DNA of 64,000 nucleotides, taken from Planctomycetota bacterium (GTDB taxonomy: Bacteria; Planctomycetota; Phycisphaerae; WQYP01). The position numbers were made by a program, and so were the translations under genes. The DNA lies in assembly GCA_021827645.1 (NCBI GenBank), contig JAKAVA010000009.1:1-64000 (forward strand), read 5' to 3'. Positions 15,242 through 63,747 of the stretch are shown here, one piece after another; within the stretch, counting starts at the first letter, position 1; each line of letters opens with the position of its first letter. Under the pieces are notes generated by a model, which ran no database searches, was not told the origin of the DNA, and saw only the letters and a program-made list of their open reading frames with translations.

Positions 15242-17536
15242 TCAGGTTCCGCCGACCGGGATGATCTTCCAGACTCGCCAGTCGCCCGGAGCGATGCGTA
15301 ATGGCGCCCGGAGGTTTGCGCCCATCTGCGAGGCGTCGATCCGGCGACCGGTGCGGGCATTGATTATTTCATACCGACCGTGTTTGATTCCCATCGCGGC
15401 AAGGTGGAGGGTGATCGTCCCGTGCCAGGGGTGTGATCGCCACCAGGGGGCAAGGGACAGCCAGATCATGTGGTGACGGCTGTCTACCATGGGGACGGCC
15501 TCAAGTCCGTTGTAGGTCGGCGTCAGGCTCACGAATGGGTGCAGATACCGAATCAACTCCGCGGGATTCCGCAGAAGATGTCCGCCATGCCGCTGATACG
15601 CCTGAAGCATGCGGCTGTGGCGAGCGTCCATGGGGTAGACGGCTTTGAACTGATTCAGATGAACGACCCCGGCACGAACCTCCCGGTCGGTTACGACCGT
15701 AAAGGCGATGTGCCATTTTCTCCAGATGGCGGCGACCCGATTGGCAAGCCCCGTCAATATCGCCGGATGACGGAAGACCGGATGATAGGAAATGTACACC
15801 GCGACCGGCTGTGCGGGATAGTGGCCGTGCATGGCGGCAAGCAGCGGCAGGGCGTGAACATACGGCGGGAAGCCGATGTCAAATTCCCGGCCTCCGTGGT
15901 AGAGGAAAAAATCCATTCCGGCGGCTTGCGAGCCTTCAAAGCCATAATGCCCAAGGAACTGGGCGATTTCTGCTTTCAATCCGGGATGCGGGGTCCATTC
16001 CTCAAAGAGCGGCACGCGATACGCCCGCGCCAGACTCGCAAAGAGCAGCATGAGGCCGGTGTGATCGGCGCAATCTTCGCAGACCGTGACATGATATCGG
16101 CGGGCCAACTGAAAAAATGTATCCGGAATATTAAATGCAACGCCGGCACCGGAATAGCCGCCGCCCCAGTAATAATAGAGCGGGGCGCTGGTGAGCCGCC
16201 GCACCATGGCGGTCAACTTGCCGTAGGTTTCCTTGACGCTCCAATTGCGAAAGTGCTGATAAAGCGGGAACAGCGATTTGCCGGGGGGCTGGGCCGGAAC
16301 ATCATCGAATCTTGCAAAGTGGGAATCGAACGGCTGATTGATGGTGGCGGGTGTTTTGTAACGCATCCTGAGCCAATGATGAAACTCCCGCACATCGGCA
16401 CCTGCATAGCCGTTGACTTCATCGGGTCCCGGCGGCGGGCCCCACATGTAATCCAGCCAGCCAAAATCAAGAAATGCGCCTCCGAAGCCGGCATTGCGGC
16501 GCAGATGCAGAATCGTCTCGCGAACAAATTGGAAGTAGGCGCGGCGGTAGGGGTGGCTCCACCATACCGGCACACGCGAAGGAGAACCGGATGAGCCGAC
16601 GTCGTAGCGATGAATCCACGGCGGCGGATTGCCCTGCCAAACGCTGTACCAGAAGATCGGAATCACTTTGACATCCGCCCGGGCGGCATTTTTGAGCGTG
16701 CGGTCCAGCGTTTGAAAATGAAACCGGCCCGGATGCGGCTCGATCATCCCCCATTCCAGATTGATTTCTGCCCTCGTAATTCCATTTGCTTTCAAATGGG
16801 CAAACGTTTTATATGACCAAACACTCGGACGCTGATTTGCCGTCCAGACCACGGTGATGGTAACTGTTTTCGGATGCAGCTTGAAAAGCCGGCTGTGGCG
16901 CGAGAGACGAAAATAGAGGTAATCCACGCCGGGATGCGTGAGCAGTTCGGCAGGGGCACCGTTGATGACCGCGGGGCGGTACTGACTGTCGATGGTATGA
17001 CCACCGGCGGCGACCTGTCGGAGGCCGTCGCCCGATATCACCTGCGCCGGCTTCGCTCTGCGTTTGCCGAGCGAAATCATTGCCGATAGGCCCGCGCGTG
17101 ACTTTTCACCGCCGAGAATGGAATCTGCGGTCACCATAACCTTTCGCACGGCGATACCGCCCGGTGCGACAATTCGAAAATCGGCCCCCGCGTTTTCCCG
17201 GCCGGTGAAAAGGATGTGGGAGATATGAAAAATACCGGTTTGCCACTGATCTCGCTTGCCCGAGGTGTAAAAGATATCAGGAGTGCCTGCATATGCATTT
17301 GAACCGGAAATGTATTGAACGGCGATGCCGGGACTTGGCGACGGTATGTAATTAAGCTGAACGGCGAAGAGGGGCTTATGGGGGATGGTCGTAATCGGGG
17401 GCTGGATCGGCCGGGCGAATCCAACGAGTATATGGAGTGTCAGAAGTGCGAAAATGCCCATCAGGGTGGCAAATGTGCCACAGCGGATAGGGGTCCCCAG
17501 AGTGCGAACCGATCTTTCAGGCGGTTTCATCCGCAT
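15242..17536 (-). CDS. Exported GH42-like glycoside hydrolase, clan A
   Basis: A 764-residue protein with an N-terminal membrane/signal segment (about residues 20-40) and a ~170-residue beta-rich domain. A TIM barrel begins near residue 250, where KANGITRAEINLEWGMIEPHPGRFHF resembles the opening of GH42/GH35 beta-galactosidases. REFHHWLRMRY also fits GH42, and FEEWTPHPG offers a candidate nucleophile Glu. The GH42 acid/base NE pair was not found with confidence, so the family is tentative and the activity unknown. The C-terminal part resembles a beta-galactosidase trimerisation region plus a small beta domain. Its start overlaps the end of dnaX by 20 bases; ATG 17536 has GAGGA eight bases upstream, but 17545 and 17530 are alternatives. 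Confidence 0.6.
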   Translation of the reverse strand: MRMKPPERSVRTLGTPIRCGTFATLMGIFALLTLHILVGFARPIQPPITTIPHKPLFAVQLNYIPSPSPGIAVQYISGSNAYAGTPDIFYTSGKRDQWQTGIFHISHILFTGRENAGADFRIVAPGGIAVRKVMVTADSILGGEKSRAGLSAMISLGKRRAKPAQVISGDGLRQVAAGGHTIDSQYRPAVINGAPAELLTHPGVDYLYFRLSRHSRLFKLHPKTVTITVVWTANQRPSVWSYKTFAHLKANGITRAEINLEWGMIEPHPGRFHFQTLDRTLKNAARADVKVIPIFWYSVWQGNPPPWIHRYDVGSSGSPSRVPVWWSHPYRRAYFQFVRETILHLRRNAGFGGAFLDFGWLDYMWGPPPGPDEVNGYAGADVREFHHWLRMRYKTPATINQPFDSHFARFDDVPAQPPGKSLFPLYQHFRNWSVKETYGKLTAMVRRLTSAPLYYYWGGGYSGAGVAFNIPDTFFQLARRYHVTVCEDCADHTGLMLLFASLARAYRVPLFEEWTPHPGLKAEIAQFLGHYGFEGSQAAGMDFFLYHGGREFDIGFPPYVHALPLLAAMHGHYPAQPVAVYISYHPVFRHPAILTGLANRVAAIWRKWHIAFTVVTDREVRAGVVHLNQFKAVYPMDARHSRMLQAYQRHGGHLLRNPAELIRYLHPFVSLTPTYNGLEAVPMVDSRHHMIWLSLAPWWRSHPWHGTITLHLAAMGIKHGRYEIINARTGRRIDASQMGANLRAPLRIAPGDWRVWKIIPVGGT

Positions 17537-19412
17537 GGGTGTCATCCTCGGCCGACGATATATATTCGATATTCACCAGCTTGGCATTAAATTTTTCCTG
17601 AAGTAATTTTACGGCAGGATGGGCGTTTACCTCCTCCCGCAATTCGGGACTGATCCGCAGCGTGGGCGCTACATCTCCGGCCGCCGTGCCGCCGGCGCCT
17701 TTGGCCCGCGCTTCGGCCACCGCGTGGGATTCAAATTCAACGCGGACGGGCCTGCCGACGGTGATTTCCAGGGCCTTTTCGATTTTTGGACGGGCATGCT
17801 GTCCCTGCACAAAGCTTTCCACTTTTTTATTAATCTGCAGGGTGACGGCGCTGGAATCATCATTCCACCTCCAGCCCAGCAGACCGCCGACAATAACTTC
17901 CGCAGATGAACCGCCGGATTCCCGGAGCACGTCAATGAATCGGGCCATTTCATCGCTCTCGGATGCTGGTGGCTGTTTCGGAGCGGTTGTTGCAGCCGGT
18001 GTCGGGAGATCGGCGGTGGCCGTGGAAGCGGACGTTGCCGACGGGGCCGCTGGCGGGATTGCTGCGGAGCGTGCAGGCACCGGCGCGATACCGCCGGCAA
18101 TCGGCTTGGCGGTAGTCACCGCAGCTGAAGGAGCCTGCGACGATGGGGCTGGGCTTGCCGCAGGGGCATAAGCCGGCGCAGAAATGGGTCTCGGTTTCGG
18201 CTGGGCGGCCGGCATTCCGGAAGCAGGACCGGGCGTTATGTCATTTTTTTTTTCAGCGCTCACGCCAGCGCCGTCACCGGCGGGCAATTCCTTGAGCCAC
18301 TGACGGATGGGCGCAAATTCGGGTGCCATCGCAAATCGTACCACCAGCGCATCGAGCAGCGGACGGGGCATGGTGGAATTGCGCAGTTGGCGTGCGGTGT
18401 GGTCGCAGATCGCAATATGATGGGCGGCTAATTGCGGGGGGAGCTGAGGTACGAGGGTTGCAAGTTGCCGACGGGATTCGGCCGTCACATCCACAAGATG
18501 CGTATCGGTTCCGCATACACCCATGACCATCAGATGCCGGAAAATGCCGGTAAGTTCATTGACCATATATTCAGGCGACATACCGGAGGCGAGAAGCGCA
18601 TCGCATTGCGCCAGCGCGGATGCGGCATCGCCGTTGAGCATGGATTGAACCCAGTTGCACATGTCCGCCAGAGGTGGGGCGCCGATGAGTTCGTTGAGCA
18701 GAGATTCGGTAATCTCGCCGGCGCCGAGCGAAAGAACCCGGTCCAATAGTGAAAGCGCATCACGCATCGACCCCGCCGCCAGAACGGCAATCCGATGCAG
18801 AGCGGCATCCTGTGCAGAGGCCTTTTCATCGCGGCATATGGCGGCCAGATGCGAGGCGATCACATCCGTGGGGATATTCTTGAAATCATATCGCTGGCAG
18901 CGGCTCAGGATCGTTGCCGGAACACGGTGAATATCCGTGGTGGCGAAAATGAATTTGACGTGCGGTGGCGGCTCTTCGAGTGTTTTGAGCAGGGCATTGA
19001 ACGCCTGCGTGGTGAGCATGTGCACTTCATCGATGATGTAGATTTTGTATTTGGATCGCGTCGGTGAAACGCCTGCATTCTGGCGCAATTCCCGGATCTG
19101 ATCCACGCCATTGTTGGAAGCGCCGTCGATCTCAATCACGTCGATATCTTCGCCTACCGCAATGGCCTTGCACGATGCGCAGCGGCCGCACGGCTCTCCG
19201 TCCTTTGAATCGGGGCAGTTGATGGCTTTGGCCAAAATGCGGGCAGCGGAGGTTTTGCCCACGCCGCGCGTGCCGGTGAATATGAAGGCGTGGGCGATGC
19301 GACCGGAGGTTACCGCGTTGCGGAGGGTTTGGGCGATGGGTTCCTGCCCGAGCAACTGGGAAAAATCCTGCGAGCGGTAGCGTCGCGCCAGAACTGTATA
19401 GGGCTGCACCAT
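17517..19412 (-). CDS. dnaX: DNA polymerase III subunits tau (and probably gamma)
   Basis: This is the clamp-loader ATPase. From ATG 19412 (YTVLARRYRSQDF, the family N-terminus) it is 631 residues. Walker A GTRGVGKT is at 47-54, the zinc ligands are Cys66, Cys75, Cys78 and Cys81, and IIDEVHML with the SRC arginine-finger motif follow, then domain III to ~375. A Pro/Ala-rich linker and a tau-like C-terminal domain complete it. Codons 387-390 lie on a run of ten A (18244-18253); slippage there would end translation at once and yield a ~390-residue gamma form (see findings). The frame is open upstream to 19571, but those 53 residues do not fit the family. It overlaps the glycosidase gene downstream. 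Confidence 0.93.
   Translation of the reverse strand: MVQPYTVLARRYRSQDFSQLLGQEPIAQTLRNAVTSGRIAHAFIFTGTRGVGKTSAARILAKAINCPDSKDGEPCGRCASCKAIAVGEDIDVIEIDGASNNGVDQIRELRQNAGVSPTRSKYKIYIIDEVHMLTTQAFNALLKTLEEPPPHVKFIFATTDIHRVPATILSRCQRYDFKNIPTDVIASHLAAICRDEKASAQDAALHRIAVLAAGSMRDALSLLDRVLSLGAGEITESLLNELIGAPPLADMCNWVQSMLNGDAASALAQCDALLASGMSPEYMVNELTGIFRHLMVMGVCGTDTHLVDVTAESRRQLATLVPQLPPQLAAHHIAICDHTARQLRNSTMPRPLLDALVVRFAMAPEFAPIRQWLKELPAGDGAGVSAEKKNDITPGPASGMPAAQPKPRPISAPAYAPAASPAPSSQAPSAAVTTAKPIAGGIAPVPARSAAIPPAAPSATSASTATADLPTPAATTAPKQPPASESDEMARFIDVLRESGGSSAEVIVGGLLGWRWNDDSSAVTLQINKKVESFVQGQHARPKIEKALEITVGRPVRVEFESHAVAEARAKGAGGTAAGDVAPTLRISPELREEVNAHPAVKLLQEKFNAKLVNIEYISSAEDDTHADETA
18241..18254 (-). 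promoter_or_regulatory. Candidate slippage site in dnaX (A10)
   Basis: The coding strand reads GAA followed by a total of ten A in GAAAAAAAAAATGAC. With one extra A, or a -1 ribosomal shift, the frame becomes GAA AAA AAA AAA TGA; with one A lost it becomes GAA AAA AAA ATG ACA TAA. Both end right after domain III. Thermus dnaX uses an A-run for transcriptional slippage and E. coli dnaX a ribosomal -1 shift; which applies here cannot be read. Confidence 0.65.
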
Positions 19413-62532: not shown

Positions 62533-63747
62533 TTACGCCACACCCCGAATCACCGCCTCCATCGCGGTGCAGGCATTCATCACGGCTGTGGGTTGATGGA
62601 CGTTGGCATCAAGCTGGGCAGCCGCCTGCGAGCATATTTCCATGCAGGCCCGAGCCCGATCCAAATCCATCGCCCCTGCCGTTGAGGGGAGCGTAAATTC
62701 CACGGGTCGGCCCACCGCGGATCGAAGGCGGTCACAAAGCCACATTTCAATCAGGGCAAAAGTCACCATGCCGCCGTCGCGTGTCGAGCGATCCTTACTG
62801 GCGGTCGGATCGTGGCTTAAAAACACTTCCGCCATCATGGCCGCTCCGTCATTGACGACTTGCGCCAGATCGCCGGCGCCGGCCTGCCCCATCAGCAGAT
62901 GATCCATCGCCTGGGCAACGCGATGTGCCACGCGCAGAATATTTCCATCCGTCGCGGGTTTGGCGGACTTTTTTCCCGTCGCCGTTGCTGGCGCGGCCGG
63001 CAGCCAGGACATAATTCGCCCGAGGCTGTTTTCAGAAAGGCGGGCAAGCAGTCCCGCATCAGTGGCGGAAAAACCATCTTCCATCAGGCGCCGGACGATA
63101 ACATCCGCCGGAAGCGGTTCAAAGGCAACCTGCTGCGACCGGCTGCGGATGGTGGACAGCAGGTCTCCCACGCTGCCGGTGCACATGACGATGTAGGTAC
63201 GCGGCGGCGGCTCTTCAAGCGCCTTGAGCAGGGCATTCTGAGCCACGGGCTGCATCAGATCGGCTTCGTCAATAATAAACCATTTACCCCGGCCCATCTG
63301 CGAATGTTTATAGAGTTTGCTTTCAACCCGGTGGTCCGGGGAATCATCGCCGATCATTTCGCCGCGGATGATGTCAATGCCCAGCGTGGTGCGTCTTGAC
63401 TTCCCGCCCCGGTCATACACGCTGCCGAGTTGCCGATTGATCACATGCAGGTCCGGATGCAGCTGAGCATCGCAGGCTCGGCAGGAGGGACATTCGCCGC
63501 ACGGCTCGATAAGTTGAAAGTCGCCCGGCAGGGCGGGAAGGACGTGCTCACCGGCGTTGGGCCGGAGGGAGGGCGCAGGGCACAGACCGCATTTGGCAAA
63601 CGCCAGCGCCGTGCGGTATTTACCGACCCCCATCGGCCCATGAAATATCCACGTGGAGGCAAGCCGCTCCGACCCCAGGACCCGCTGGAGCTGAGTCAGG
63701 GCGCGAGTCTGTCCGATGATCGACCAGATACTACCCATGGCGGTCAC
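62533..63747 (-). CDS. holB: DNA polymerase III delta-prime subunit
   Basis: A 404-residue clamp-loader subunit homologous to DnaX in this window. P-loop GPMGVGKY lies near residues 38-45 and the zinc-type cysteines are in EPCGECPSCRACD. FIIDEADLMQPVAQNALLKALEEPPP is the Walker B/sensor region shared by DnaX and delta-prime, and TIRSRSQQ ends the ATPase core. The P-loop has Tyr where an ATPase has Thr/Ser, in keeping with delta-prime often being ATPase-inactive. The C-terminal collar domain is longer than usual and carries a Lys/Ala-rich insert (~265-285). GTG 63747 overlaps the preceding stop by four bases (GTGA); ATG 63738 is the alternative. Confidence 0.88.
   Translation of the reverse strand: MTAMGSIWSIIGQTRALTQLQRVLGSERLASTWIFHGPMGVGKYRTALAFAKCGLCPAPSLRPNAGEHVLPALPGDFQLIEPCGECPSCRACDAQLHPDLHVINRQLGSVYDRGGKSRRTTLGIDIIRGEMIGDDSPDHRVESKLYKHSQMGRGKWFIIDEADLMQPVAQNALLKALEEPPPRTYIVMCTGSVGDLLSTIRSRSQQVAFEPLPADVIVRRLMEDGFSATDAGLLARLSENSLGRIMSWLPAAPATATGKKSAKPATDGNILRVAHRVAQAMDHLLMGQAGAGDLAQVVNDGAAMMAEVFLSHDPTASKDRSTRDGGMVTFALIEMWLCDRLRSAVGRPVEFTLPSTAGAMDLDRARACMEICSQAAAQLDANVHQPTAVMNACTAMEAVIRGVA

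Follow-up and report, generated by a model that had tools for sequence, protein, structure and literature searches.

Programmed ribosomal frameshifting in the dnaX gene of E. coli takes place on A_AAA_AAG, with a Shine-Dalgarno sequence upstream and a hairpin downstream, and this bacterium has long supplied the arguments over whether a short DnaX product is needed. The dnaX gene of Thermus thermophilus (Larsen et al. 2000, as described in PMC1088944 and PMC5009743) carries a coding-strand run of nine A late in the gene and stops in both non-zero frames, tau being templated in one ORF and gamma being expected from slipped mRNAs. Two-ORF dnaX genes, as described in the main text of the GeneTack survey (2013, PMC3711429), template gamma in the zero frame and reach tau by a -1 shift at poly-A, for which slippage was proposed; A10 is present in nine of the 17 genes listed there. 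The dnaX gene considered here lies in a stretch of 64,000 nucleotides from a Planctomycetota bacterium, referred to as the window, and resembles that of Thermus in each of the features named above, its run being A10 where that of Thermus is A9 and standing right after clamp-loader domain III (Table 1). We consider it probable, at roughly 0.8, that this A10 is a programmed slippage site at which realignment by RNA polymerase would give tau and gamma from one gene.

Table 1. Coordinates of dnaX, its domains and the predicted slippage site in the window.
Feature	Position	Strand	Remark
dnaX, clamp-loader tau/gamma gene	17517..19412	-	TIGR02397 dnaX_nterm, 427 bits (cut-off 250)
AAA+ ATPase domain	18873..19346	-	Pfam PF13177, ORF residues 76-233
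Clamp-loader domain III	18300..18692	-	Pfam PF12169, ORF residues 294-424
Predicted slippage site: ten A in the coding strand	18244..18253	-	T10 on the + strand
TGA reached with one extra A or by a -1 ribosomal shift	18241..18243	-	0 nt past the run; predicted gamma of 390 residues
TAA reached with one A fewer (or two extra)	18236..18238	-	5 nt past the run; reads ATG ACA TAA
part specific to tau (linker rich in Pro/Ala, C-terminal domain)	17517..18240	-	translated only with the frame kept

The start of dnaX that has homology support is the ATG at 19412 (MVQPYTVLARRYRSQDF), although the longest ORF reaches upstream to 19571 and comprises 684 aa free of stops, with tau in one open frame. Counted from that ATG the run covers codons 387-390, and the coding strand around it reads GCT GAA AAA AAA AAT GAC ATA ACG; in the numbering of the longest ORF it begins in residue 440, which is 16 codons beyond the end of Pfam domain III at residue 424, predicted to be the last domain of gamma. 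Loss of one A would yield a gamma of 391 residues. The initial annotation had placed the run at codons 387-390 directly after domain III, with TGA following at once upon gain of an A or a -1 shift, TAA two codons later upon loss of an A, and products of 390 or 391 residues; reading the coding strand from 18253 to 18244 bore out the position, both stops were found where they had been described, the product lengths hold when counted from 19412, and the place after domain III agrees with the interval of 16 codons. Within the window, the run is the only one of at least nine A or T. The 3' end of dnaX shares 29 nt (17517-17545) with the start of the ORF that follows it on this strand, taken in its longest form (15242-17545, 767 aa), and a second dnaX-like ATPase match, at 63034-63720 on the minus strand (E 6e-11), is probably the delta-prime clamp-loader gene holB.

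For comparison, the dnaX genes of 123 genomes of the same class (Phycisphaerae, Planctomycetota, as judged by relatives that carry names) were examined, most of these genomes being metagenome assemblies (MAGs). A9 or A10 stands at the domain III border in 100 of the 123 (82 A10, 18 A9 and none longer), these 100 spanning 79 of the 95 genera and 19 of the 23 families, at a median offset of 42 nt from the anchor residue (quartiles 32-56); in the family of the window the run is exactly A10 in 24 of 25 readable genes, the exception being G010. Elsewhere in the phylum at least nine A are found at the border in 6 of 65 genomes of other families (Fisher p ~ 1e-22 against 100/123, with relatedness ignored), and some of the named Planctomycetia (Schlesneria, Gemmata and Aporhodopirellula) also have A9 or A10. 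The window's own 3.3-Mb genome contains 27 exact runs of A9, three of A10 and two of A11, the three including the dnaX site and two others which were both read and neither of which lies within a convincing gene; since A9 outnumbers A10 there (27 against 3), the predominance of A10 at the dnaX border is not background. By hand count, 44 of the 154 exact A10 runs in 61 genomes are the dnaX site, which is the sole exact A10 of its genome in 16 of the 61, one of them of 5.8 Mb (G050). Besides G010, 22 class genes are without A9 or A10, some with sites of ribosomal type and others with no visible site, and in six genes, those of G010 and L179 (family f3) among them, neither an A-run nor an obvious ribosomal slippery site was seen at the border; such members may have lost gamma or may produce it otherwise. 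Isolated A9 runs, mostly with near stops, were also seen at the same border in single genes from Ignavibacteria, Verrucomicrobia, Desulfobacteraceae, Proteobacteria and Clostridia, the last of which appears to template gamma, and this scatter over other phyla suggests repeated independent origins.

Of 81 tau-templating genes, 80% have a stop in each of the two other frames no more than 30 nt away, as against 9% at control positions of the same genes, an enrichment that none of 2000 permutations matched (this count, like all others given here that do not rest on a tree, ignores shared ancestry). The run itself occupies all three codon registers (63, 31 and 6 genes per phase), with at least 17 changes of register on the tree, and in G024 it is shifted by one base, through one change at each end, and still numbers exactly ten A. 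That selection maintains a patch of lysines was rejected, as a pair of lysines is missing there from relatives that lack the run, and lysine is more often encoded by AAG than by AAA (793 against 533) in the upstream parts of these dnaX genes. As the sequences show, it is the run itself that is under selection, and not lysines or one reading frame. That the run is a neutral feature, a lysine stretch or a chance series of A in a disordered linker with fortuitous stops behind it, would agree with the poor conservation of the linker and with the lack of a run in the close genus G010, but is hardly credible in view of the conservation, the 16 genomes with no other A10, the enrichment of stops and the missing lysine pair, and it is contradicted by orthologues, described below, which need a shift in order to make tau. 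The expectation of the initial annotation that relatives would keep the run and the stops in both frames thus holds in the family as in the class, and its judgement that the arrangement was unlikely to be chance can be put more strongly, as conservation and stop statistics together rule chance out.

In 17 of the A10 genes the arrangement is swapped: the zero frame stops within 11 codons past the run, gamma is the templated product, and the tail of tau is found in a different frame. Compared with a profile of tau tails, the shifted frames score E-values from 1e-34 to 4e-6. This frame is -1 in 14 genes and +1 in three (G009, G012 and G042), the latter requiring the loss of one A or the gain of two. 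The family of the window alone holds all three registers, as most of its members template tau, G009 and G012 need +1 and G011 needs -1. At least 12 switches of arrangement among A9/A10 genes were counted on a quick tree of domains I-III in which some branches are weak. Some of these could be sequencing errors, an A10 gene with tau in -1 being unswapped if its true run is A11; however, the +1 genes cannot stem from a miscalled A11, and families agree internally (4/4 in f18). In annotation pipelines, swapped genes are likely to appear as pseudogenes or as truncated dnaX. A tract of A10 is prone to slippage by DNA polymerase too, and the differing frame arrangements among relatives could be read as phase variation, with cells going over from tau to gamma and back through slippage in replication. 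This is very improbable, as the length is fixed at 10 in all 24 run-bearing genes of the family and never exceeds 10 in the 100 class genes, what sets swapped genes apart is the bases beside the run and its register rather than its length, and a contingency locus is hardly to be expected in a gene essential for replication.

A more serious contender is the ribosome, which on a faithful mRNA could make gamma by -1 frameshifting on A_AAA_AAA, in the style of E. coli dnaX with its A_AAA_AAG. The heptamer A_AAA_AAA is in frame at the window's site, where a -1 shift meets TGA at once, and since A10 includes it in every register, -1 ribosomal slippage could contribute; moreover, 14 of the 17 swapped A10 genes need the -1 shift that ribosomes would give. 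However, the signals that would stimulate such a shift were not seen at A9/A10 sites. Folding of the 55 nt that follow does not exceed that of shuffled sequences (mean z -0.18, with z < -2 in 6 of 100 sites against 8 of 100 controls), no hairpin follows the window's own site (z -0.56), and most A9/A10 sites have no long upstream Shine-Dalgarno match, although a few show an SD-like one. In the window, the upstream sequence ctggcgtgagcgctg contains no AGGAGG-like match to an internal Shine-Dalgarno 10-14 nt upstream, and the heptamer is followed by AAT, the in-frame A_AAA_AAG of the E. coli type being absent. Further, seven A would suffice for the ribosome, yet nine or ten are kept; the register is free; and three genes need +1. 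In vitro, sliding of ribosomes is robust on A11 and slight on A9 or A10 (PMC4363877), whereas bacterial RNA polymerase slips efficiently at nine A (PMC5009743). In E. coli reporters, a construct carrying the poly-A of a different gene (9 A) shifted at 40% (PMC3711429), a value in which ribosome and RNA polymerase are not separated. Frameshifting by the ribosome as the source of gamma is thus unlikely, though by some way the least unlikely of the alternatives weighed here.

Other members of the class do seem to use -1 frameshifting. Where the run is A7 or A8, the downstream sequence is more folded (mean z -1.79), and nine such genes are swapped, all of them in phase 2 with the register A_AAA_AAA and the tau tail in -1, the zero frame stopping 3-7 codons on and a GC-rich hairpin following in most. 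The four genes of family f4 read G_GGA_AAA GCC TGA with a strong hairpin directly after, and their -1 frame encodes a short conserved tau-like tail, DHALVRRARELFAPEE; here a ribosomal -1 frameshift likely produces tau. Both kinds of site look like ribosomal frameshifting, by which the class would hold both solutions. In Thermus a second lysine tRNA has reportedly been proposed to favour slippage by RNA polymerase over ribosomal shifting. A pattern search for tRNA-Lys in 40 genomes, however, found the CUU isoacceptor in users of both kinds of site, and it was rejected as the cause of the choice; in the 93% complete assembly that contains the window the search found no such isoacceptor, but a congener has it.

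Taken together, these data allow a model for the window's dnaX to be put forward. In this model, RNA polymerase would let the transcript slip and realign on the template at A10, with A gained or lost, such that dnaX mRNAs would fall into all three frames. Those with 10 A (or 10 plus or minus 3) would be translated into full-length tau, while the remainder would stop within two codons and give gamma, consisting of domains I-III, with 390-391 aa and a mass of about 42 kDa. No ribosomal signal would then be needed for one gene to supply both subunits, as with dnaX of Thermus thermophilus. In a transcript pool that contains every frame, the templated frame would hardly matter, which would explain the repeated switches to the templating of gamma. 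Of ribosome and RNA polymerase, between which the initial annotation had made no choice, the polymerase is favoured as the slipping agent by the lack of hairpin and Shine-Dalgarno, by the use of both shift directions and by the behaviour in vitro of ribosome and polymerase on runs of A, although this falls short of proof and the ribosome may have a share. The occurrence of both shift directions among orthologues is a sign of transcriptional slippage given in the GeneTack paper (PMC3711429), and it strengthens, together with the free register and the repeated swaps of product, the slippage that had been proposed for this run at the outset. On a wider scale, it seems rather likely, if less so than slippage at the window's site, that the templated frame is nearly neutral among Phycisphaerae and that the gene drifts through registers and between tau and gamma templating while the length of the run and both products persist. 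This would be direct evolutionary evidence that both products are selected, and within this one class the mechanism would have changed repeatedly, from polymerase slippage to ribosomal frameshifting or back. A class that keeps its slippage site through at least 12 switches of templated product argues that cells need both forms, and the series that it offers (A10 or A9; A7 with hairpin; GGGAAAA with hairpin) is a natural one in which to study how either of these mechanisms gives way to the other.

With regard to known systems, the transcriptional-slippage kind of dnaX is already described, as are swapped two-ORF dnaX genes with A10 (in the dnaX account of the 2013 survey, PMC3711429); Phycisphaerae are not mentioned in the main text of that survey, and a literature search found no report for the class. 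What is new is that the length of the run is conserved over the whole class, that its register is free, that genes of swapped and unswapped arrangement are interleaved and that, in some lineages of this class, signals of ribosomal type take its place. The window's dnaX would work like that of Thermus thermophilus, with which it shares every feature that can be tested in sequence: a run of at least nine A, near stops in both other frames and tau in one frame are all present, while independence of ribosomal stimulators, of register and of direction is found in the set of relatives and, for the window itself, as the absence of a hairpin only. Compared with Thermus as described in the sources above, the Phycisphaerae run is conserved across a class, free in register and repeatedly swapped, and its slippage is predicted from sequence. 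Unlike the two-ORF genes of the GeneTack account, the window's gene templates tau, genes of the two templated kinds occur side by side in the same families, and a +1 shift is needed in three. With E. coli dnaX and its -1 programmed ribosomal frameshifting, the window's site has the gene, the border and the two products in common, but it differs in having A10 and neither Shine-Dalgarno nor hairpin; the members of the class with A7/A8 or G_GGA_AAA stand nearer to E. coli, though several of them template gamma.
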